From Mycobacterium spongiae (GTDB taxonomy: Bacteria > Actinomycetota > Actinomycetes > Mycobacteriales > Mycobacteriaceae), in the NCBI RefSeq assembly GCF_018278905.1, contig NZ_CP046600.1:2294001-2358000 (forward strand): a DNA stretch of 64,000 nt. The letters run 5' to 3'. Below are positions 34,090-48,458 of this stretch, piece by piece (the stretch's first letter is position 1; each line of letters starts with the position of its first letter). Made by a program: the position numbers and the translations under genes. Below the pieces are notes generated by a model. That model saw only the letters and a program-made list of their open reading frames with translations, made no database searches and was not told where the DNA came from.

Positions 34090-35139
34090 CTAGCGTGCTT
34101 CACCGATTGGCGTTGGGCTACGCCGGGCCTTTGTGGTCTGGTTCTTGAGTCGCGCGGAGTAGACATCCATGTTCGCCCGTGCTTTCCACATTCGGTTGGA
34201 GAGCCTGCCCTTGAATTGCCGCCAGGGTGTGTCCGTCCGTTGGTACTGCAGGGCCAACATCGCAAGCCGTGGGTGGCGCGCGATGCAGTCGAGAAGCGCG
34301 GCGCGGCCTTCCGTGCCCGGTACTTTCGCGATCTCGCCGAGCACCCAGTCGCACATCTTGCCGACCACGTGCTCGCGCGCGGGGTTGCCGATGATCAGGT
34401 CGATGACCGCGTCGAAGGTTGCCGCATGCGCAGCACCTTGTGCCAGCCAAAACTTGGACGGGTTCATGAGCGCGTCGTACCACATGCCTTCGGCGTGACG
34501 GCGGTAGACGGCCATCGTCTCGGGCAGCATCGCAACGTCGCCGCGGACCGCGTGCCGCAAATGCAAGTAGTAGTCGAGCGGCATGATGTCTGCGGGGATG
34601 TCGTCGTAGCGGGGGAGCCGACGGTACATGACCGAGTTGGTCTGAATGAAGGCTCTCTCGATCAGGGCCTCCACGCTGAAGTCGTAATGCCATTCGAGCG
34701 GCGGGTAGACCACGTCGTCGGCCCGTCCGTCATCCCAGACCACCCACACGGGATGGAAGCACACGGCCGCCTCAGGATGCCGGTCGAGGAAGGCCACCTG
34801 TTTGCTCAGCTTCAGTGGATCGATCCAGTAGTCGTCTCCCTCGCACAACGCGAGGTATTCGCCACGAGCTGTCGACATGGCCCCGATGAGATTCGCGTTG
34901 AGGCCGAGGTTCTCCGGCCGGAAGATCGGCCGGAACAACTGCGGGTAGCGGTCCGTGTACTCCCGGATTATGGCCGGCGTGCTATCGGTCGAGGCATCGT
35001 CGGCGACGATGATCTCCACCGGAAAGTCGGTCTGTTGGGCGACAAAGCTGTCATAGGTCTGACGAACGTAGGTCTCCTGGTTGTACGCGGTCGACACGAT
35101 GCTCACTTTGGGTGGGTTCGCGGCCGTCGTTTCGGGCAC
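34090..35139 (-). CDS. GT2 glycosyltransferase, pair A copy 1
   Basis: A 349-residue family 2 glycosyltransferase started at the GTG behind AGGAAGGAAG, giving VPETTAANPPKVS. The GT-A core has VSIVSTAYNQETYVRQTYDS, EIIVADDASTDSTP and the metal-site EGDDYWIDPLKLSKQ. It has a helical tail and no membrane segment. It is a close paralogue of the gene at 41938-42987; both are exactly 1050 bases with matching starts (V/LPE...). The acceptor is probably a LOS oligosaccharide intermediate on the cytoplasmic face. Confidence 0.9.
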   Translation of the reverse strand: MPETTAANPPKVSIVSTAYNQETYVRQTYDSFVAQQTDFPVEIIVADDASTDSTPAIIREYTDRYPQLFRPIFRPENLGLNANLIGAMSTARGEYLALCEGDDYWIDPLKLSKQVAFLDRHPEAAVCFHPVWVVWDDGRADDVVYPPLEWHYDFSVEALIERAFIQTNSVMYRRLPRYDDIPADIMPLDYYLHLRHAVRGDVAMLPETMAVYRRHAEGMWYDALMNPSKFWLAQGAAHAATFDAVIDLIIGNPAREHVVGKMCDWVLGEIAKVPGTEGRAALLDCIARHPRLAMLALQYQRTDTPWRQFKGRLSNRMWKARANMDVYSARLKNQTTKARRSPTPIGEAR

Positions 35140-35623
35140 TGTGAGCTTCCTTCCTGCGCGGCGCAGTTCCTGTCGTCCGTCACGTGCGGGGCGGGTTGGG
35201 TCTCCCGCGCGCGGCGACCTGCCCCCAACGGCGCGGTGACGACGGGTCGCTGTGCTCAAGAGGTTTACCCGGACACCTGCTAGCAGCTCCCCACGTGCAT
35301 CCGAGCAAATCACGGAATTCGTATCACAACAACCGGCGTAATCTGCGACACTTCCTGCGACGGGAAGGCCACGGGGGTAGCGCGTCCGGTACCGTTTCAT
35401 CGAGAGCAGGGGAGCAGGCAAAACCGAACCGGCCCTCGATGTGCTGCGTGGCGCGATCGCGGCCCTTCCGGGGACGGGCACATGCCTGCAGCCGCCCAGT
35501 CCGGGCGCAGCTATTAGTGGGCCGAAGACTGGTAGTGATGGGTGACGTTAGTGGTAAACCGCCGGAGGAATCGATAATCCGACTGAACGTTGTAATCGAA
35601 TCGTCGTGGTCGTAAAGGAAAAC
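35140..35623. other. Divergent intergenic region
   Basis: No convincing gene is present in these 484 bases. Reading frames here are Arg/Ala/Gly-rich as in random high-GC DNA. The right half drops in GC as it approaches the low-GC methyltransferase gene. It contains the second copy of the upstream segment described at 26104-26160. Confidence 0.45.
35306..35370 (+). repeat. Upstream segment similar to 26104-26160 (copy B)
   Basis: Shares ordered blocks GGAATTC, CACAAC, CGGCG, ATCTGCGA, ACTTC and TGCGACGGG with the copy near 26.1 kb. Similarity may extend to GTCCGGT about 30 bases further right in both. It lies in the leader of the low-GC methyltransferase gene. Confidence 0.5.
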
Positions 35624-37706: not shown

Positions 37707-38714
37707 GTGGTCTTGGAATTGCTGAGCAGGGTGCGCTCCGATGCCGGGCGGGGGTACCGCTACCTGGCGGCCGTGCCCTACCGGGTCAGCGGCAATGCTC
37801 TCCGCTTCATTCGTCAAACCCACGAGGAGCTGCCACCGCGGCCTCCGCCGGATCGCCGCACCCTGGTTCTCTTCGCGCACTTCGACCCCCAGCGCATGAT
37901 CGATCCATATGTCGTCTACTACCTGAAGGCGCTGCACGACCTGGGCGCAACCATCTTGCTTGTGTCCGGTTCGCCCAAGCTCAAGCCAGAATCCGTTGCC
38001 TCCATCCGTTCCCTCTGTGCGGGTATCTACACCCGCCGCACGCTGTCACTAGACTTTGGCTCCTGGCACCTCGCATGGTCCATAGTCCAAGAGCGTGGTT
38101 GGTCGCTCGACCACTTCGACCGTCTTGTCCTGGCAAACGACAGCGTGTTCGGACCGGTCCTTCCGCTCGAAGAGATGTGGCGTTCGTTCCACGGCGCCGA
38201 CATGTATGGCGCTATCGAAAGCGCGGAGTTCGGCCTGCACTTGCAATCCTTCTTCCTGGCGTGGGACCTCAACCCGCGAACTCGCCGGTTCCTCACTGAC
38301 TTCTGGAGTGAGTTCGAATACGTAGTTGACAAGGTCAACCTCGTCGACCGCTACGAGATCGGATTGTCCACGAGGGCACGCGAAGCCGGGCTGCGCCTGA
38401 AACCCTTCGTGTCCGTCGACAGCATCAACCCAACCTATGCGCGTTGCCCGAACCACCAATGGGCCAGCAAGTTCTCCAGCGAACCGTTCAACCACACGCT
38501 GTACTACTGGGACGGCCTCATCCAGCACTGCCGGTTCCCCTTCCTCAAGACAATCCTGCCGCGGCACAACGACCCCTGGCACGACTCCATGGCGCAGTTG
38601 CGCGAATTCATCGAGCTCTACACCGAATATCCCTACGAGTTGATCCAATCGAATGTGGACAGGCTCGGCTGCGGAGTCTCCTCCTGGGTCAAGCCATCCA
38701 GCGCGCCGGCTTAA
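37707..38714 (+). CDS. RgpF-like glycosyltransferase, copy 2
   Basis: A 335-residue paralogue of the protein at 26380-27426. It shares LVLFAHFDPQRMIDPYVVYY, LSLDFGSWHLAW, the NDSVFGP block, LQSFFLAWDLN and the C-terminal PWHDSM-LREFIE block. It starts at GTG 23 bases after the methyltransferase stop, so it is probably co-transcribed. Two such enzymes suggest two related linkages or a repeated deoxysugar unit in the product. GC is back to the mycobacterial norm here. Confidence 0.85.
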   Translation: MVLELLSRVRSDAGRGYRYLAAVPYRVSGNALRFIRQTHEELPPRPPPDRRTLVLFAHFDPQRMIDPYVVYYLKALHDLGATILLVSGSPKLKPESVASIRSLCAGIYTRRTLSLDFGSWHLAWSIVQERGWSLDHFDRLVLANDSVFGPVLPLEEMWRSFHGADMYGAIESAEFGLHLQSFFLAWDLNPRTRRFLTDFWSEFEYVVDKVNLVDRYEIGLSTRAREAGLRLKPFVSVDSINPTYARCPNHQWASKFSSEPFNHTLYYWDGLIQHCRFPFLKTILPRHNDPWHDSMAQLREFIELYTEYPYELIQSNVDRLGCGVSSWVKPSSAPA

Positions 38715-38767: not shown

Positions 38768-40468
38768 TCATCCAACGTTGTTGGCGAGAGTCACGTTTGC
38801 CCGCGGGTTCGCGGCGGCGCTAGTCGGCGTCTGGGTAACGCGGCTCGTCTTTGAGGCGGTCCGTAACGAAGCAACTAGGTTGGTGGCCAACGATTTCGCC
38901 AGCGAGCGGATGCGGGGCGCGTTCTCGACATGCCAAAAGCGCATTGTGGAGTTGAAGTTGCCGCCGACCAGGGGCCCGATGACGAAGAAATCGGGCGTGG
39001 CCTCGAAGGCGTCGTTCACAAGGAGGCCGCGGTTGGTGCGGTTGGGGCGGCCAAGCTTGTTGCACATGATGCTGACGAGGAAGGGCGAGGAACACTCGTC
39101 CAGTTCTTCGAAACCGGCACAATTCACCACGGCGGCAAACGGCAGGGGGTGGGTATGTTCAGCTCCCTCAGCGCGGTAGCTCAGGGTGGCAATCGGTTGG
39201 CCGGGGGCGCAAGCATGCACGCGCACTACCTCGCCGGCGAGCAGGCTGAGCGCGTCTTGGGCGGCCAGTTCGTCGGTTGCCTGACGGTAGTCGCGTCCCG
39301 CTCGCCGCACCAGCTTGGTGAAGTTCATGCCGTGCACGCAGAAGAACTCCTCCTGCTGCGGCAGCGTCATCCGTTGCAGCACTTGCCCGATCAGGGCGCC
39401 GATCGCGTGGTGGCAATCGGCCAGGTTCAGTGAGCGTTTCTGGGCGGTACCCAGGTCGTCGCGGATCGCCGACATGAGATCCGCCGCGTCAACCGTTTCC
39501 GCGGAGAGCAGCGCACGAATCCGCGGGAAGCCGTATTCCGGCGGCTGATCGCGGATCAGGTGGGGAAGCGCGCCCGACCGCGAGATCACGGTGATGGAGT
39601 TCACCTGCTGGCGGATGCGCGCGTGGTGGCGCATGAGGTAGAGCACCTCGAGCGAGGTGGCGTTGGAACCCACCACGAGCACGTTGCGCCGTTCGAGCGG
39701 TTCGACCTTGTTCAGCGCTTGGCACAACTGTTCCAGGTTTGTCTGCGCGCTCGGGGAGTAGAAATCGTTGACGTAGGCGAACGGGGGCTCGGAATCGTCG
39801 GCGAGGATCGTCCTCGCCGGGGGGCTACCGATGGCGACGATCACTTTGGCTGCTTCGATCGCGGTTGGACCATGTCCGGCCGGGTTGAGCCCGATCACGT
39901 GGCGGCCGTCGGTGTACCGCGCGCTCGTGGCCTCGGCGCGGATGGTGACGATTTCGGCCAGCTCGCGCTCGGCGAGCTGAGCGATGCCGGCATCGACTTG
40001 TTCGGAGATGAAGTCTCCGAAGAGAAAGCGCGGCAGGTACAGCTCGCCCCAACGGCCAGCGTCCAAAGCCGCGCGGTTGTCGCGGATCCAGCGTTCGGCG
40101 GCTTCGCCGCCCTGCCGCCGGAACAAGGCCAGCCAACGCGGCTTATGGCGCTCTAGCCAGGCGATGTAGGAGGATCTTTCCGGTTCGTGGACGAATTCGT
40201 CGAGCTTCTGAATGGCCAGCGAGCCGATGCTGGAGCGCCGGCCATAGGGGATTCCGCACCACAACTGGTCGTCGCGCTCCACCACCGCGATGCGCAGCTT
40301 GCCGATCTTGGGTGCGGCGCTCAGTAGAGCCTCGGCCAGCTCCAGCAGAGTCATGGAGCAGGCGATCCCGCTGCCAATAAAGGCGATGTCGAAGGTCGCC
40401 GCAGCGGCCTGCTCTTGCGCTAAGACATCGATCGGTCGCTGCCGGTCGTCTTGTGTCGGATCGGTCAA
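38768..40468 (-). CDS. FAD/NAD(P)-binding oxidoreductase
   Basis: A 566-residue flavoprotein with the N-terminal dinucleotide fold IAFIGSGIACSMTLLELAEAL and an FAD-linked PYGRRSSIGSLAIQ region, a second nucleotide motif NVLVVGSNATSLEVLYLM, and a C-terminal FFVIGPLVGGNFNSTMRFWHVEN block. It belongs to the NAD_binding_9 / SidA-like group of flavin monooxygenase relatives. The start is TTG, since no ATG or GTG is available near the fold. It is divergent from the aminotransferase gene. It could oxidise a sugar nucleotide or amino group during LOS amino-sugar synthesis; this is inference. Confidence 0.8.
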   Translation of the reverse strand: MTDPTQDDRQRPIDVLAQEQAAAATFDIAFIGSGIACSMTLLELAEALLSAAPKIGKLRIAVVERDDQLWCGIPYGRRSSIGSLAIQKLDEFVHEPERSSYIAWLERHKPRWLALFRRQGGEAAERWIRDNRAALDAGRWGELYLPRFLFGDFISEQVDAGIAQLAERELAEIVTIRAEATSARYTDGRHVIGLNPAGHGPTAIEAAKVIVAIGSPPARTILADDSEPPFAYVNDFYSPSAQTNLEQLCQALNKVEPLERRNVLVVGSNATSLEVLYLMRHHARIRQQVNSITVISRSGALPHLIRDQPPEYGFPRIRALLSAETVDAADLMSAIRDDLGTAQKRSLNLADCHHAIGALIGQVLQRMTLPQQEEFFCVHGMNFTKLVRRAGRDYRQATDELAAQDALSLLAGEVVRVHACAPGQPIATLSYRAEGAEHTHPLPFAAVVNCAGFEELDECSSPFLVSIMCNKLGRPNRTNRGLLVNDAFEATPDFFVIGPLVGGNFNSTMRFWHVENAPRIRSLAKSLATNLVASLRTASKTSRVTQTPTSAAANPRANVTLANNVG

Positions 40469-40681
40469 ATCTTGGGTCCGCCAACTGATCCGGGCGTCGT
40501 CGAGAAGTCGCTGTCGGGGCTTGCTCTTGTCGTCGGCCCCGTGGGCAGCTGGGCGCGCGAGCTCACCCGCCAGCTGGTTGCTGAGACACCCAGCATGGGC
40601 ACGTCGGGCATCTGCAGCGATCCCACCTCATTAGCTCGACAGCCTCGTGGCGATTATCTCGACGCCGCGTGGCGCCGCACT

Positions 40682-40700
40682 TTAGGGAAGGCTAACATAA
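40682..40700. promoter_or_regulatory. IdeR iron box upstream of the aminotransferase gene
   Basis: TTAGGGAAGGCTAACATAA matches the 19-bp mycobacterial IdeR consensus (TTAGGTTAGGCTAACCTAA) at 16 of 19 positions, including the symmetric TTAGG...AGGCTAAC core. It ends 24 bases before the aminotransferase ATG, where a bound repressor would block RNA polymerase. This predicts Fe-IdeR repression and induction in low iron. The divergent flavoprotein gene starts about 210 bases away and may or may not share control. Confidence 0.7.
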
Positions 40701-40724
40701 CCTACCGGCATTGATAGGGGCGTG

Positions 40725-41945
40725 ATGGATAGTCTGACTCGAGACGACATTGTGTGGCCGACCCTGTCCAGATTCCCCTGGTCGGCTTCCCAAGCGGATC
40801 GACCGCCGCGTGCGGCGATCCCCTTCATCCGTCCGAGCTTTCCCGGTCCGGAGGACTTTGCCGAGGACTTGCGCGAGATAGCCCAGGCAAACTGGTACAC
40901 GAACTTCGGGGCAAAGGAGCAGCAGTTCGCGCGAGCCCTGGGCCGGTATCTCGGGCACGATCTGCAGGTTGCCACTTTCGCCAACGGCACCCTGGCGCTC
41001 ATCGCGGCACTGCACGCGACTTTCGGACCTGGAACCCGCGACCGCTATCTATTGATGCCGTCATTCACCTTCATCGCCGTGGCGCAGGCGGCTCTGTGGG
41101 CCGGGTACCGTCCGTGGTTCATCGACATCGACTCCGATACCTGGCAACCAAGCGCGCGCTCCGCCCGTGCTGTCCTCGAACGGTCTCGTGACCGCATTGC
41201 CGGCATCGTGCTTGCCAACGTGTTCGGTGTCGGCAACCCCCGGATCGACATGTGGGAACATCTCGGCGCGGAGTGGGAGGTACCGATAGTCCTCGACTCG
41301 GCCGCTGGCTTCGGCTCGGAGTATGCCGACGGCGAGCGCGTCGGCGCACGTGGCCGCTGTGAGGTCTTCTCTTTCCACGCGACCAAACCGTTCGGAGTGG
41401 GTGAGGGCGGCGCACTTGTATCTCGCGACCCACGACTGGTCAGGCAAGCGTACAACTTCCAGAATTTCGGCTTCGCTGAGTCGAGGGAGTCTGTTCAGCT
41501 CGGGCTCAACGGAAAGCTGCAAGAGATCAACGCCGCCATAGGCCTGCGACAACTCGTCGGACTCGACCGCCGCAGGGCAAGCCGCCGAGCCGTTTTCGAG
41601 CGCTATCGGATGAACCTCACCGGCGCCGGCCTCCGGTTCCAGCCCAATGCCGAGGTTTCGGCGCTGTGCTTCGGCAGCGCATGTACCGTGTCGGTCGACC
41701 ATCGTGCCGCGGTGCTCACCAGCCTGCGCGCAGACGCGATCGAGGCCCGTGACTACTACAACCCACCCCAGCACCGACACCCGTACTTGATGGCGAACCC
41801 CGAGTTGACAGCGTCGACGGACTTGCCGGTCACCGAGGACATTTGCTCGCGAGTCGTCTCGCTGCCGATCCACGACTACATGGCATCCGATGATGTCGCT
41901 CGAGTCGTTGCCGCGGTGGAGGAAGGCAGGACCCGGATTGCCTGA
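40725..41945 (+). CDS. wecE: WecE-like DegT/DnrJ/EryC1 sugar aminotransferase
   Basis: A 406-residue PLP enzyme of the sugar aminotransferase family. The PLP lysine is Lys221 in SFHATKPFGVGEGG. TFANGTLALIAALHA binds cofactor phosphate, IVLDSAAGFGSEY carries the PLP-ring Asp, and LNGKLQEINAAIGL is the family's C-terminal signature. A GTG one codon earlier could also start it. It converts a 4-keto (or 3-keto) 6-deoxy sugar nucleotide to the amino sugar. M. tuberculosis has this gene broken into Rv1503c/Rv1504c, and the M. marinum orthologue is needed for late LOS species. Confidence 0.9.
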   Translation: MDSLTRDDIVWPTLSRFPWSASQADRPPRAAIPFIRPSFPGPEDFAEDLREIAQANWYTNFGAKEQQFARALGRYLGHDLQVATFANGTLALIAALHATFGPGTRDRYLLMPSFTFIAVAQAALWAGYRPWFIDIDSDTWQPSARSARAVLERSRDRIAGIVLANVFGVGNPRIDMWEHLGAEWEVPIVLDSAAGFGSEYADGERVGARGRCEVFSFHATKPFGVGEGGALVSRDPRLVRQAYNFQNFGFAESRESVQLGLNGKLQEINAAIGLRQLVGLDRRRASRRAVFERYRMNLTGAGLRFQPNAEVSALCFGSACTVSVDHRAAVLTSLRADAIEARDYYNPPQHRHPYLMANPELTASTDLPVTEDICSRVVSLPIHDYMASDDVARVVAAVEEGRTRIA

Positions 41946-42987
41946 GAGCGCACCCAGGGCGACGCCGAAAGTCAGCGTCGTGTCGATCACCTACAACCAC
42001 CAGGCCTACATCCGAGAGTCGCTGGACGGCTTTGTCTCCCAGATGACGGACTTCCCCGTAGAGATCATCGTCGCTGACGACGCCTCCACCGACGCCACGC
42101 CAGCGATCATCCAGGAATACTCGGACCGCTATCCGCACCTGTTCCGGCCAATCTTGCGGCCGAAGAACGTCGGCGTCCACGCGAATCTGACGGATGCACT
42201 GTCGGCTGCACAAGGTGACTATCTTGCCTTGTGTGAGGGTGATGACTTTTGGATCGACCCGCTGAAGCTCAGCAAGCAGATCGCCTTCCTCGACCAACAT
42301 CCTCAGACCACGGTGTGCTTCCATCCGGTACGTGTGACCTGGGACGATGGCCGCGCTCAGGATTCCGAGTTCCCGCCGAACTTCCTGCGCCGCGACCTTA
42401 GTGTGGAGGCATTGATCGCGCGCAACTTCATCCAGACCAACTCTGTTGTCTACCGCCGCCAGCCTTGCTACGACGACATCCCAGCCGGGATCATGCCGGT
42501 GGACTGGTATCTGCACCTGCGGCATGCGGTCAGCGGCGACATCGCGATGCTGACGGACACGATGGCGGTCTACCGCCGCCACGAGCAAGGGATCTGGCAC
42601 TCCTCCTATGCCGACCCCCCTAAGTTTTGGCGAGAGCTCGGTCCAGGCTTGGTCGCGACCCTCGACGCCATGCTGAGTCTGGTCGCCGGTAACAGCGTGC
42701 GGGAAGAGATCATCGGCGAGGCCGCCTACTGCGCGCTGACCGAGATCGCCAAGGTCCCGGGCGCCGAGGGCCGCGGCGCGTTGGCCGAATGCCTAGCGCG
42801 GCATCCGGGAGTCGCGAGTTTGGCCCTGCGTCACCGCTGGCGGCAGACGCCCTGGCGGCGACTCAAAAGCAGGCTCTCGGCTGAAGTTTGGGGCTGGAGG
42901 GCGCACGCGGATCTCTACGCCGGCCGGGTCAAGCACGAGGCGCGCCGGGCGCGGCAATGTCTCACGGCCCACAGCCTCTCGAGCTAG
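41938..42987 (+). CDS. GT2 glycosyltransferase, pair A copy 2
   Basis: A 349-residue GT-A enzyme. The start taken is TTG, overlapping the aminotransferase stop and preceded by AGGAAGG; it aligns exactly with the GTG start of the paralogue at 34090-35139, and both are 1050 bases. An ATG at 41890 would add 16 residues. The core reads VSVVSITYNHQAYIRES, EIIVADDASTDATPAII and LCEGDDFWIDPLKLSKQ. Translational coupling to the aminotransferase suggests it transfers the amino sugar that enzyme makes. Confidence 0.88.
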   Translation: MPESAPRATPKVSVVSITYNHQAYIRESLDGFVSQMTDFPVEIIVADDASTDATPAIIQEYSDRYPHLFRPILRPKNVGVHANLTDALSAAQGDYLALCEGDDFWIDPLKLSKQIAFLDQHPQTTVCFHPVRVTWDDGRAQDSEFPPNFLRRDLSVEALIARNFIQTNSVVYRRQPCYDDIPAGIMPVDWYLHLRHAVSGDIAMLTDTMAVYRRHEQGIWHSSYADPPKFWRELGPGLVATLDAMLSLVAGNSVREEIIGEAAYCALTEIAKVPGAEGRGALAECLARHPGVASLALRHRWRQTPWRRLKSRLSAEVWGWRAHADLYAGRVKHEARRARQCLTAHSLSS

Positions 42988-43076: not shown

Positions 43077-44048
43077 TCACGAGACAGCCTTGGAGTGCGA
43101 CAAGACGTTGTCGCGCCATCGCCGGGCGAACGCGAATTCGCTGACGGGAGCTCGAGCCAATGTCTTTAGGCGCGTCGTCCGCTGCGGTCCAAACGCCACG
43201 ACCCGTACCGGTGCGACCAACCAGGTTAGGGACCACCCGACTGTGGCGATGACCCGAACCGCCCTGGGCGACATCGGGTCCACGATCAGCCAGGTCAGAA
43301 TGCGCAGCTGATCCAGCCAGTTCTGCCCAGATTTCACGATGCGCATCGATTCGGTGCTCACGGCGTGTGTGCGCACCGACAGTTCCTGTGGCACAAAGCA
43401 CACCACCGATCTCAGCATCAGGCGATACCAGAAATCCAAGTCGACGAGCTGATAGATGTCGGTGCGGAAGGCCCCCGCTTCCACAGCCAGCCGGCGGCGA
43501 AACATCACACAGGTCGGTTCACCTATCCAATTTCCGGCACCGCCGCGCAGCGCCATCTGCGCGACCAACCACGGTCCGCGGTTACGGTCGCGCAGCCTCC
43601 AAAAGTGTTTGTGGGCGGGTCCCACCCTGCGTCGCCTGGGCAGGTTGTCGTCCTGTACCACCCGCCGAGGCGCGAAAGCCATCCCGACCGCCGGGTCGTC
43701 GAAGCACGGGGCGAGTGTCCGCAAGGCTCCGGGAAGCAGCCAGTCATCGCCATGAACGAACTGGATCAGTCCACCCCGAGCGAGTTCCAGGCACCTGTTG
43801 TGGTTCTGATTCAGGCCGAGGCGGGATTCATTGCTGATCAGCCGATCCTCTGGCCTGAGCATTCTTGACGCAATCTTGACGGAGTCGTCTGACGAGCCAT
43901 CGTCGACGACCACCACCTCGAAATCGGCGCCTTCCTGATCCAGGATGCCGCGTAGACAACGTGCGATGGTTGCAGCGTTGTTGTACATCGGCACGCACAC
44001 CGAGATCGTGGGGTGCGCCGGCGCATTGTCAACACCGTTGGCGCGCAT
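43077..44048 (-). CDS. GT2 glycosyltransferase, pair B copy 1
   Basis: A 323-residue family 2 glycosyltransferase from the ATG giving MRANGVDN (a TTG ten codons earlier is possible). Core motifs are [49 protein letters not shown] with the DxD-like GDD, and [12 protein letters not shown]. One hydrophobic segment near residue 280 may associate with the membrane. It is a strong paralogue of the gene at 45485-46462, including the [12 protein letters not shown] and [10 protein letters not shown] blocks. It transfers an unknown sugar to the LOS glycan. Confidence 0.9.
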
Positions 44049-44621
44049 CGCTAGCCTGCTCGATTCGTTCTTGGTCAATCAATTCGGTAGCGCTCCCGAA
44101 CAACCAGGCAGCCTTGCCCATCGCTAGCCTTCCTGTCCTGCCCGCGAAACCGCCTCAGCATAGCCGTGCGTCGCCGGTCTGGGCGGTTGCCGGGTACTCA
44201 AGCTCAGCCGCGACTCCTCCGCTGGCGGGTGTTGTTTCCGCAGCTAGACGCGTTTTCTAGGGGTGCTTGGCGGGGGTCTCGGCGGTGCGCGCGTGATATT
44301 TGCCAGCCTGCCCGGGCGAGGCAGCAACTGTACCGACGTTTGGGCGCTACCTGGGCAAACAGCCCGGCCTGCGTGGCTGCGTTGTGCGCTGAGGTCGGGT
44401 GGTCTGCCGCGCAAAACAGCTGCTAGAACGCGAATGTGACGGCCACCACAACGCTGACCATCGTGGTTTGACTGCGTCCGCGTGGGTTGTCTGCTCGGGA
44501 TCATCTGCGGCCGGCGTCGCGACGGCAATAACTCTCGCAAGTGTTGGTGTTGGTCAGATGAGAAAACTCTCCAATTCTTCAGTAACGCCACGAGATACGC
44601 TGTCCCCTAGTAGCGTCCCCA
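44049..44621. other. Intergenic gap before the GAP-like gene
   Basis: No intact gene is seen across these 573 bases, which lie between divergently transcribed genes. Forward frames (such as 43961-44260) are low-complexity. The GAP-like gene has no strong ribosome site within the last 15 bases. Confidence 0.4.
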
Positions 44622-45443
44622 GTGATGTGGACAATGGTGCTGATACTCGGGATGGGGATGGCCGTCGATCCCGTGCGCCTAGGGCTGGCCGTGGTCATGG
44701 TTTCACGGCGCAGGCCTATGGTGAATCTGCTGGCCTTCTGGCTCGGCGGCATCGTGGCAGGTATCGGCGTGGGGATCGCGGTGCTGGTGGTGATGCGCGA
44801 AGTCGCGTTGGCCGCTATGGAAAACGCCACATCTGCGTTCTCCAGCGTCACGTCCGAGTTCACAATCATTACAGGCGGGCGTCTCTATATCGCCCTCGGG
44901 CTGTTCGCTCTGCTCGTTGTCGCAGTCATATCCGCGCGGGCACGGATCGCCACACGGTTATCGGAACCAGTATTTACGCCGGCGACATCGCCCGTGCCCG
45001 TTGGCGGCAATGCGGCGACCCTGGTTGAAGAGCGGCCCACAGCGGAACCCCCAGCGGAAGTGGAGGAGCCGCCCTCGCGGAATTTGTTTGCGCGGCTCGG
45101 GGCATGCACTCACGACATGCTGAACCGCGACCGGGCCTGGCCGGCGTTCGTCGTGGGCCTCGCATCGTCATTTCCGCCGTACGAGGGCATAATTCTGCTG
45201 TCCATCATCATGGCTTCGGGAGCCGCCGTCGGCACCCAGTTCAGTGCTCTGATCGTGTTCGTCCTGATCGTGCTGGCGGTCATCGAGATCCCGCTGGTCG
45301 GGTACCTGGCAATGCCGGACAAAACCCTAGCCGTGATGCTGCAGATCCAGACGTGGCTGCGGACCTATCGCCGGCAGATTGTCCAGACCATTCTCACTGT
45401 GACCGGGGTACTCCTTCTCGTTCAGGGTGTGCTTGCTCTCTGA
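44622..45443 (+). CDS. GAP-like multi-pass membrane protein (GPL-addressing family)
   Basis: A 273-residue protein with about six membrane helices: near 4-22, 34-58, 88-104, 173-195, 204-224 and 250-270. They are split by a cytosolic Pro/Glu-rich loop (about 118-150). The N-terminal block MAVDPVRLGLAVVMVSRRRP and the EGIILLSIIMASG region are typical of Sap/GAP proteins. GAP is required to bring glycopeptidolipids to the surface in M. smegmatis, and LOS and acyl-trehalose loci carry relatives. It probably works with MmpL12 in LOS export. The start is GTG followed by ATG. Confidence 0.85.
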   Translation: MMWTMVLILGMGMAVDPVRLGLAVVMVSRRRPMVNLLAFWLGGIVAGIGVGIAVLVVMREVALAAMENATSAFSSVTSEFTIITGGRLYIALGLFALLVVAVISARARIATRLSEPVFTPATSPVPVGGNAATLVEERPTAEPPAEVEEPPSRNLFARLGACTHDMLNRDRAWPAFVVGLASSFPPYEGIILLSIIMASGAAVGTQFSALIVFVLIVLAVIEIPLVGYLAMPDKTLAVMLQIQTWLRTYRRQIVQTILTVTGVLLLVQGVLAL

Positions 45444-46706: not shown

Positions 46707-48458
46707 ATGTCCGTGGTTGCATCTTCACTGCCTGCTGTGCTTCGCGAACGCGCCAGCATGCAGCCCAACGACGGCGCGTTCACCTATGTCGACTACGACC
46801 AGTCGTGGGACGGTGTTGAACAGACTCTGACGTGGTCGCAGTTGTATCGCCGAACGCTGAACCTTGCTGTCCACCTCAGAGAACGCGGGTCGACCGGTGA
46901 CCGGGCGGTGATCCTGGCCCCGCAAGGATTGGACTACATCGTTAGTTTTCTCGCCGCGTTGCAGGCCGGACTGATTGCGGTTCCGCTCTCGGTTCCTTAT
47001 GGCGGTGCCCACGATGAGCGCACGACGTCGGTGTTGGCCGATACGTCGCCAGCGGTGATCCTCACGGCTTCTTCGGTGATCGACAATGTGTCCGAGTATG
47101 CGCAACCGCAGTACAACCAAGACGTGGCCGCCATAATCGAGGTCGATCGACTGGAGCTCGATGGACGGCTAGCGGGCGCCTCTCGGGCTGTCAATCACGA
47201 CTGGCCGGATACGTTGTATTTGCAGTACACCTCGGGGTCGACGCGGACGCCGGCCGGTGTCATGGTCTCGAACAAGAATCTCTTCGCCAATTTCGAACAG
47301 ATCATGTCGACTTACTATGGCGGCTACGGAAAAGTCGCCCCGCCGGGCTCCACTGTGGTGTCGTGGTTGCCGTTCTATCACGACATGGGTTTCATATTAG
47401 GACTTGTACTTCCGGTTCTGTCCGGAATGCCCGCGGTGCTGACCAGCCCGGTGGGGTTCCTGCAACGACCGGCCCGGTGGATGCAATTGCTTGCCAGCAA
47501 CACTCTGGCTTTTTCGGCCGGCCCGAACTTTGCCTTTGACTTGGCTTCGCGCAAGACGAAAGACGAAGACTTGGAGGGCCTTGACCTCGGTGGCGTCCAC
47601 GGCATTCTCAACGGCAGCGAACGGGTGCAGCCCATAACCCTGCAGCGCTTCATCGATCGGTTCGCGCCGTTCAATCTTGATCCCAGGGCGCTGCGTCCGT
47701 CGTACGGGATGGCCGAGGCTGTCGTGTACGTGGCGACCCTCAAGACGGGGCAACCGCCAAAGATCGTCAATTTCGATGCCCAGAAGCTGCCGGATGGTCA
47801 AGCGGAACGCTCCGAAAGTGACGGCAGCACGCCGTTGGTGAGCTACGGCACAGTCGATACGCAGCTGGTGCGCATTGTCGATCCCGACACCAGGGTCGAG
47901 TGCTCGGAGGGCGCGGTTGGCGAGATCTGGGTGCACGGCGGCAACGTCGCGTGCGGCTACTGGCGGAAGCCCGAGGAATCTGCGCATACGTTCGAGGCAA
48001 GCATTGTCAACCCGTCGCAGGGGACACCTGAAAGCCCTTGGCTGCGGACGGGAGATTCGGGTTTCCTGTCAGACGGTGAGCTGTTCATCCTCGGTCGCAT
48101 CAAGGACCTGTTGATCGTGTACGGACGCAACCACTCGCCCGACGACATTGAGGCGACCATTCAGGGGATCACGCCGGGCCGTTGTGCGGCGATCGCCGTT
48201 CCCCATGATGGCGCTGAGAAGCTGGTTGCCATCATCGAACTCAAGAAGAAAGACGAGTCCGATGAAGAGGCAATGCAGCGCCTCGGTGTCGTGAAACGTG
48301 AAGTCACCGCTGCGATATCGAAGTCGCACGGGTTGAGTGTGGCGGATCTCGTTCTGGTGCCTCAGGGTTCGATTCCGATCACGACGAGCGGCAAGGTGCG
48401 CCGAGCGCAGTGCGTTGAGTTGTACCGACAGGACGAGTTCACTCGCTTGGACGCCTAG
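46707..48458 (+). CDS. fadD25: Fatty acyl-AMP ligase FadD25
   Basis: A 583-residue adenylating enzyme, the same length as M. tuberculosis FadD25, behind an AAGG ribosome site. The AMP-binding motif is [43 protein letters not shown] and the [25 protein letters not shown] hinge are intact. Like other FAALs it activates a fatty acid as acyl-AMP and passes it to a polyketide synthase, here probably Pks5. The 244-base gap before it carries its promoter. Confidence 0.96.

Follow-up and report, generated by a model that had tools for sequence, protein, structure and literature searches.

An iron box of the IdeR type in a LOS locus of Mycobacterium spongiae is probably a shared IdeR operator, derived from a flavoprotein gene (RED) and now located between RED and a divergent sugar aminotransferase gene (AT) that is followed by an overlapping glycosyltransferase gene. 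This assignment comes from sequence comparison across a window of 64,000 nucleotides (the whole stretch of DNA analysed) and the genomes of relatives. IdeR is known for its control of siderophore and iron-storage genes, and IdeR control of the Rv3402c-type amino-sugar module is also of a known kind; what is new here is the relocation to a LOS locus. The features of the window are as follows.

37707..38714, + strand: RgpF-family protein (family match)
38768..40468, - strand: RED, FAD/NAD(P)-binding flavoprotein, PF13454, Rv3403c-like (predicted fold and family match)
40682..40700, no strand assigned: IdeR iron box TTAGGGAAGGCTAACATAA, which reads TTATGTTAGCCTTCCCTAA from the RED side
40693..40698, + strand: candidate -10 hexamer for AT (TAACAT, TANNNT type), inside the box, read from the sequence
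40694..40699, - strand: candidate -10 hexamer for RED (TATGTT), inside the box, read from the sequence
40722..41945, + strand: AT, DegT/DnrJ/EryC1 sugar aminotransferase, start at GTG 40722 or ATG 40725, ∼75% identical to P0017
41890..42987, + strand: family-2 glycosyltransferase, start at ATG 41890 or alternatively TTG 41938, overlapping the AT stop
43077..44078, - strand: glycosyltransferase that flanks the module (family match)
46707..48458, + strand: fatty-acid-AMP ligase, FadD25-like, the anchor for the LOS-locus survey

The iron box and its genomic setting

The box TTAGGGAAGGCTAACATAA matches the palindromic IdeR consensus TTAGGTTAGGCTAACCTAA at 16 of 19 positions (mismatches at positions 6, 7 and 16), as the original prediction had it, and the degenerate consensus TWAGGTWAGSCTWACCTWA at 17 of 19 (2 mismatches). 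When the window was scanned with TTAGGTTAGGCTAACCTAA at ≤3 mismatches, 40682-40700 (+) was the sole match, and shuffles gave a match in 0 of 100 cases. Across the genome of 5.58 Mb (5,581,157 bases, one contig), the degenerate pattern returned 3 sites at 2 mismatches and 5 at ≤3, and a reversed control pattern gave 0 matches in the whole genome. Under a chance model of independent bases at the window G+C, 0.11 sites are expected per genome at ≤2 mismatches and 1.8 at ≤3 (0.0012 per 64-kb window at ≤2), so that sites with 3 mismatches are near chance and only those with 2 mismatches stand out. A chance match at 40682-40700 is ruled out by the shuffles, the genome counts and the base model, and the comparisons support an assignment as an IdeR-type operator sequence that lies well above chance and is conserved in relatives. 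IdeR itself is encoded in the genome (L062, 230 aa, E 1.2e-138 to PDB 1fx7). Another 2-mismatch box (L005) is found beside a DUF2470 gene adjoining prephenate dehydratase, a neighbourhood that we take to be that of Rv3838c-Rv3839, an IdeR target, and another (L001, G000:C1:266089-266107) precedes a MerR/TipAS regulator gene by ∼170 bases. Rv3839 belongs, together with Rv1519 and Rv3403c, to the IdeR regulon.

The box ends 24 bases before the AT start if translation begins at ATG 40725, which is the distance originally given, and 21 bases before it if the in-frame GTG 40722 is used. A strict sigma-70 scan of 40400-40800 returned no promoter; TANNNT hexamers occur in the box on both strands. The letters TATGTT recur in the RED boxes of 7/8 relatives that carry these genes at their usual locus (described below), and the C-to-A departure at box position 16 falls within this hexamer on the RED strand. 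TATGTT is read here as the putative -10 hexamer of RED.

The gene content fits a LOS locus, with a fatty-acid-AMP ligase (for which we presume the name FadD25), MmpL and several glycosyltransferases; a 2115-aa ORF is PKS-sized, as judged by length alone. In keeping with the prediction, AT is a DegT/DnrJ/EryC1 family member in a LOS-type locus, and its stop (41943-41945) falls inside the glycosyltransferase ORF, a geometry in which the translational coupling that had been proposed is possible. RED is divergent from AT, with the box between both genes; its true start is uncertain, and the protein database entry has 528 aa. In the LOS-type loci L042, L045 and L047, the place that RED has in the window is taken by an RgpF homologue, which lies ahead of AT and on the opposite strand. 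Two glycosyltransferases of the window (34090-35481 and 41890-42987) are about equally similar to the usual-locus glycosyltransferase of L041 (60.5% and 62%, respectively), which suggests that they arose by duplication. A gene of the Sap/SfLAP (sulfolipid-1-addressing protein) family is also present in the LOS locus (44622-45443), and several of the LOS/GPL-type loci that were read contain relatives of it with 30-53% identity.

The usual locus in relatives and the origin of the box

We searched for AT in 297 genomes of the genus (E ≤ 1e-60), where 22 gave one match each, and, using P0017 as query, in a wider set of 396, of which 25 carried it. P0017 represents a nameless 412-aa cluster of 1082 members, and is 75% identical to AT over 92%. 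By our own reading, its first and last residues, as well as two stretches within it, fit the rv3402c primers in the available excerpt of PMC3983203, which is why we take P0017 to be the M. tuberculosis complex Rv3402c; no AT more than 80% identical to P0017 was found in the 396 genomes searched. The excerpt describes rv3402c as IdeR- and iron-repressed (citing Gold et al. 2001), with a predicted role in LPS-like molecule/sugar synthesis, and Rv3402c is entered as a dTDP-4-amino-4,6-dideoxy-D-glucose aminotransferase in the available excerpt of PMC12910592. Iron control of such a gene had been thought to be without precedent; given the IdeR repression of rv3402c (∼75% identical) in that excerpt of PMC3983203, a precedent does exist, one step away. 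Among the open-licence matches listed, no study is evidently devoted to iron control of mycobacterial LOS genes, as judged from the excerpts available.

We read the gene contexts of 24 AT relatives, each over 7.7 to 20 kb. In eight genomes (G006, G007, G023, G063, G104, G107, G119 and G210), AT lies at a conserved locus, here termed usual, with flanks that resemble Rv3400-Rv3401 and Rv3405c onwards. Available excerpts of PMC10453824 and PMC3087520 provide the gene order rv3400-rv3408 and name Rv3402c, Rv3403c and Rv3404c, and the second of these sources sets the three genes together as aminotransferase/FAD dependent oxidoreductase/formyltransferase. At the usual locus, AT and a glycosyltransferase are followed by RED on the other strand and, in 7/8 genomes, by FT, a Rv3404c-like sugar N-formyltransferase (one usual-locus FT gives E 3.2e-127 to PDB 4pzu, Rv3404c); FT of G007 is on another contig. 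At the usual locus RED is thus separated from AT by the glycosyltransferase and lies on the opposite strand, whereas in the window it is divergent from AT. An iron box precedes AT in 8/8 of these relatives (2-3 mismatches, AGAGGTAAGGCTAACCTYA or similar), and a second box precedes RED in 7/8 (2-3 mismatches, TTATGTTAGCCTTCCCTAA or similar in the RED orientation), the RED box of L048 being degraded (5 mismatches). Two separate boxes per Rv3402c-type locus, one for AT and one for RED, were accordingly observed in L041, L043, L044 and L049-L052. As FT in the usual-locus stretches is upstream of the second box, it is probably outside the control of that box.

The window box agrees in all 19 letters with the RED boxes of two relatives, L050 and L051, a point that the original prediction overlooked. 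The RED proteins of these two relatives are only 63-64% identical to that of the window, and at such divergence the identity of 19 letters would hardly be expected without selection. When the box and its flank were aligned to the RED upstream regions of six relatives (L041, L043, L044, L049, L050 and L086), with 200 single-base shuffles each as control, scores of 23.0, 24.0, 21.0 and 21.5 were obtained for L041, L043, L044 and L050 (shuffle maxima 17.5, 16.0, 17.5 and 17.0, respectively); the alignments to L049 (15.0 against a shuffle maximum of 18.5) and L086 (10.0 against 17.0) were not significant. The box alone provides most of these scores (e.g. 17 of 23 for L041, the flank of which is 12/18 identical), and the spacer aligns only in part, over the box and the sequence next to it. 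The box lies at -307 from residue 26 of RED in the window, at -73 to -134 in most relatives and at -249 in L044.

The usual locus of the M. spongiae genome is empty, as the Rv3401-like gene abuts a TetR-like (Rv3405c-type) gene and no match to AT, RED or the glycosyltransferase was found there. In phylogenetic trees, RED groups with the usual-locus RED of L044 (support 99/96) and AT with the LOS-cluster ATs of L042/L047 (96/86), which suggests that RED and the box were brought beside a LOS-type AT. Placement of the window AT within the Rv3402c clade is not rejected by the AU test (p 0.35), and AT itself may either have been captured in the LOS locus or have moved along too. Given the letter identity to the RED box, the divergent RED and the empty usual locus, the box most likely arrived together with RED and ended up between RED and AT; descent from the AT operator is disfavoured for the box, which has the letters of the RED operator. 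The order RED/AT/glycosyltransferase of the window is also found in a LOS-type locus of G382 (L086, 7200-11622), which lacks a box (7 mismatches in the best candidate); a search of G382 for FT at E ≤ 1e-60 found none. A single move of RED into the LOS locus, common to the window and L086, is not rejected by the AU test (p 0.08).

Association of the box with RED and FT

RED was searched for in the 297 genomes, with the RED of L086 (G382) being found by local comparison. A close RED is present in 9/297 genomes, all of them within the 22 AT genomes (hypergeometric 1e-11, treating genomes as independent, which they are not); the nine exclude a RED-like match in G054 (31% identity, E 6.6e-63), a genome that has no AT. 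A box stands upstream of AT in exactly the nine genomes that have a close RED, and FT, present in 9/396 genomes, occurs in the same nine box carriers among the 25 AT genomes. Upstream of AT in the 13 other AT genomes of the 297-genome set, the nearest candidate has at least 5 mismatches, and no box at ≤4 mismatches was found in the stretches read from these 13. Eight of the nine co-occurrences represent one conserved block, so that the M. spongiae genome carries weight as the informative case, in which linkage is broken and all of the parts are kept along with the box. Its FT is encoded far from the window:

G000:C1:2964419-2965096 (L138 9411-10106), ∼630 kb from the window AT: FT, open frame of 231 aa

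This FT is 74% identical to the usual-locus FT that matches PDB 4pzu and overlaps a SMP-30/strictosidine-synthase-like gene by a few bases, and no box at ≤5 mismatches was found near it in a 20-kb stretch. L086 is the reverse case of the window, with neither FT nor box.

The other 16 AT relatives lie among homologues of the window LOS-locus genes or GPL-type glycosyltransferases, and among them RED was found only in L086. The 15 AT genomes in which no RED was found (13 by whole-genome search, 2 by stretch alone) gave 0 boxes in their stretches (7.7-20 kb). For the loci read, a box general to LOS/GPL aminotransferases was rejected, with 0/16 loci (13 + 3) at ≤4 mismatches in stretches of 7.7-20 kb. 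We also surveyed 16 LOS-locus stretches from other genomes, picked from the 57/294 genomes (that of M. spongiae included) with a FadD25-like match at E ≤ 1e-250, and found 0 boxes at ≤4 mismatches; four of the 16 come from genomes with AT at the usual locus, five have only a distant AT-like match (27.6-28%), and one (L131 of G104) contains very little sequence ahead of the ligase gene. The original reading is supported in that an IdeR-type operator sequence precedes the AT of a LOS-type locus, with an overlapping glycosyltransferase downstream; its claim to novelty is not supported, given the Rv3402c precedent. What had been missed is that, in the genomes examined, the box accompanies RED and FT, and is not general to LOS aminotransferases.

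Proposed regulation and comparison with known systems

As a shared operator, the box would act in both directions: iron-loaded IdeR would cover the -10 region and lead to repression, and iron starvation would release RED one way and AT with the overlapping glycosyltransferase the other way. It is conceivable, though we consider it unlikely, that the box serves RED alone, and that AT and the glycosyltransferase are transcribed from a separate, iron-independent promoter. The box is a RED operator by letters and orientation, the operator type of AT itself (AGAGGTAAGGCTAACCTYA and similar) is missing from the window, and no box was seen in the stretches of AT genomes without RED, all of which would fit such an arrangement; however, the 21-24 bases between the end of the box and the AT start leave little room downstream for a separate promoter, and a TANNNT hexamer lies within the box on the AT strand. 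Very little probability is given to the explanation closest to the original prediction, namely that a LOS aminotransferase acquired its iron control within the LOS setting, as a means of altering surface antigen in the host. AT does sit in a LOS-type locus, with LOS-cluster ATs as its neighbours in the best tree, but neither the 16 other LOS-/GPL-type AT loci nor the 16 LOS-locus stretches have a box at ≤4 mismatches, and letters that are those of the RED operator argue against a LOS-context origin. Least probable of all is a decayed or non-functional relic carried with RED; the genes are rearranged, the usual locus is empty and L086 has the same gene order with no box, but the 19 letters have stayed identical in two relatives despite the divergence of their RED proteins. 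The shared operator remains our preferred reading.

RED is 71% identical (88% of query) to P0127, which is taken as the RED homologue of the M. tuberculosis complex. PF13454 is its only Pfam match, and no meaningful match was found in PDB by sequence. The predicted fold has two dinucleotide-binding domains and comes closest in rank to flavin N-hydroxylases (FzmM/CreE aspartate type; SidA/PvdA ornithine type), which have this fold in common with the predicted RED; among the matches listed, the longest alignment is to FzmM, and these enzymes differ from RED in sequence (10-15% identity) with TM-scores of about 0.5. UniRef names of RED relatives mention urate hydroxylase HpyO/CreE-like. The highest Z-scores (22.0-23.4 over 299-318 residues) are those for disulfide and thioredoxin reductases; as RED is missing a CxxC pair, the thioredoxin-reductase type is rejected, an argument that does not reach the bacillithiol-disulfide-reductase type. 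Cys450 is the only Cys of RED kept in at least 90% of 54 rows. In the RED relatives P0124, P0126 and P0203, PF13454 is combined with a condensation-type domain (PF00668), owing either to fusion or to an artefact of gene calling.

AT, RED and the unlinked FT would constitute one amino-sugar pathway, in which AT would install the 4-amino group, FT would N-formylate and RED would probably oxidise the nitrogen, and the glycosyltransferase of the LOS locus would attach the pathway product to a surface glycolipid. A more specific proposal, which we regard as speculative and doubtful, is that an iron-starvation pathway builds an N-formyl-N-hydroxy-4-amino-4,6-dideoxy sugar: the amine from AT would be N-hydroxylated by RED and formylated by FT to give a hydroxamate on a nucleotide sugar, and the glycosyltransferase would place it on a surface glycolipid, here LOS. 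N-hydroxylation and formylation are the reaction pair that gives hydroxamate iron ligands in some siderophores. If true, an iron-binding sugar would be displayed on the cell surface, or one sugar form would be exchanged for another in response to iron, and a related product would be expected from the Rv3402c-Rv3404c genes. A reason for the IdeR repression of the amino-sugar gene Rv3402c is not given in the excerpts of the literature examined, and a testable suggestion is that iron control goes with a flavoprotein of N-hydroxylase-like fold and a sugar formyltransferase.

Among known systems, Rv1519 of M. tuberculosis resembles the window case in being an AT-like gene, and is positioned in the LOS region of that species. 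In the available excerpt of PMC12910592, Rv1519 is a possible partial duplication of Rv3402c and is listed among gene products presumed non-enzymic, in which it differs from AT. Rv3403c and Rv3404c are relatives of the M. spongiae RED and FT. The likeness to Rv3402c consists in an AT that is ∼75% identical and in the iron box found upstream in the close relatives of Rv3402c. In protein similarity AT is thus what would be expected of an Rv3402c orthologue, but its chromosomal locus is not the one next to an Rv3401-type gene. Whereas Rv3402c-type genes adjoin that gene and have a box of their own, the window AT lies in a LOS locus, beside the box of a divergent RED.
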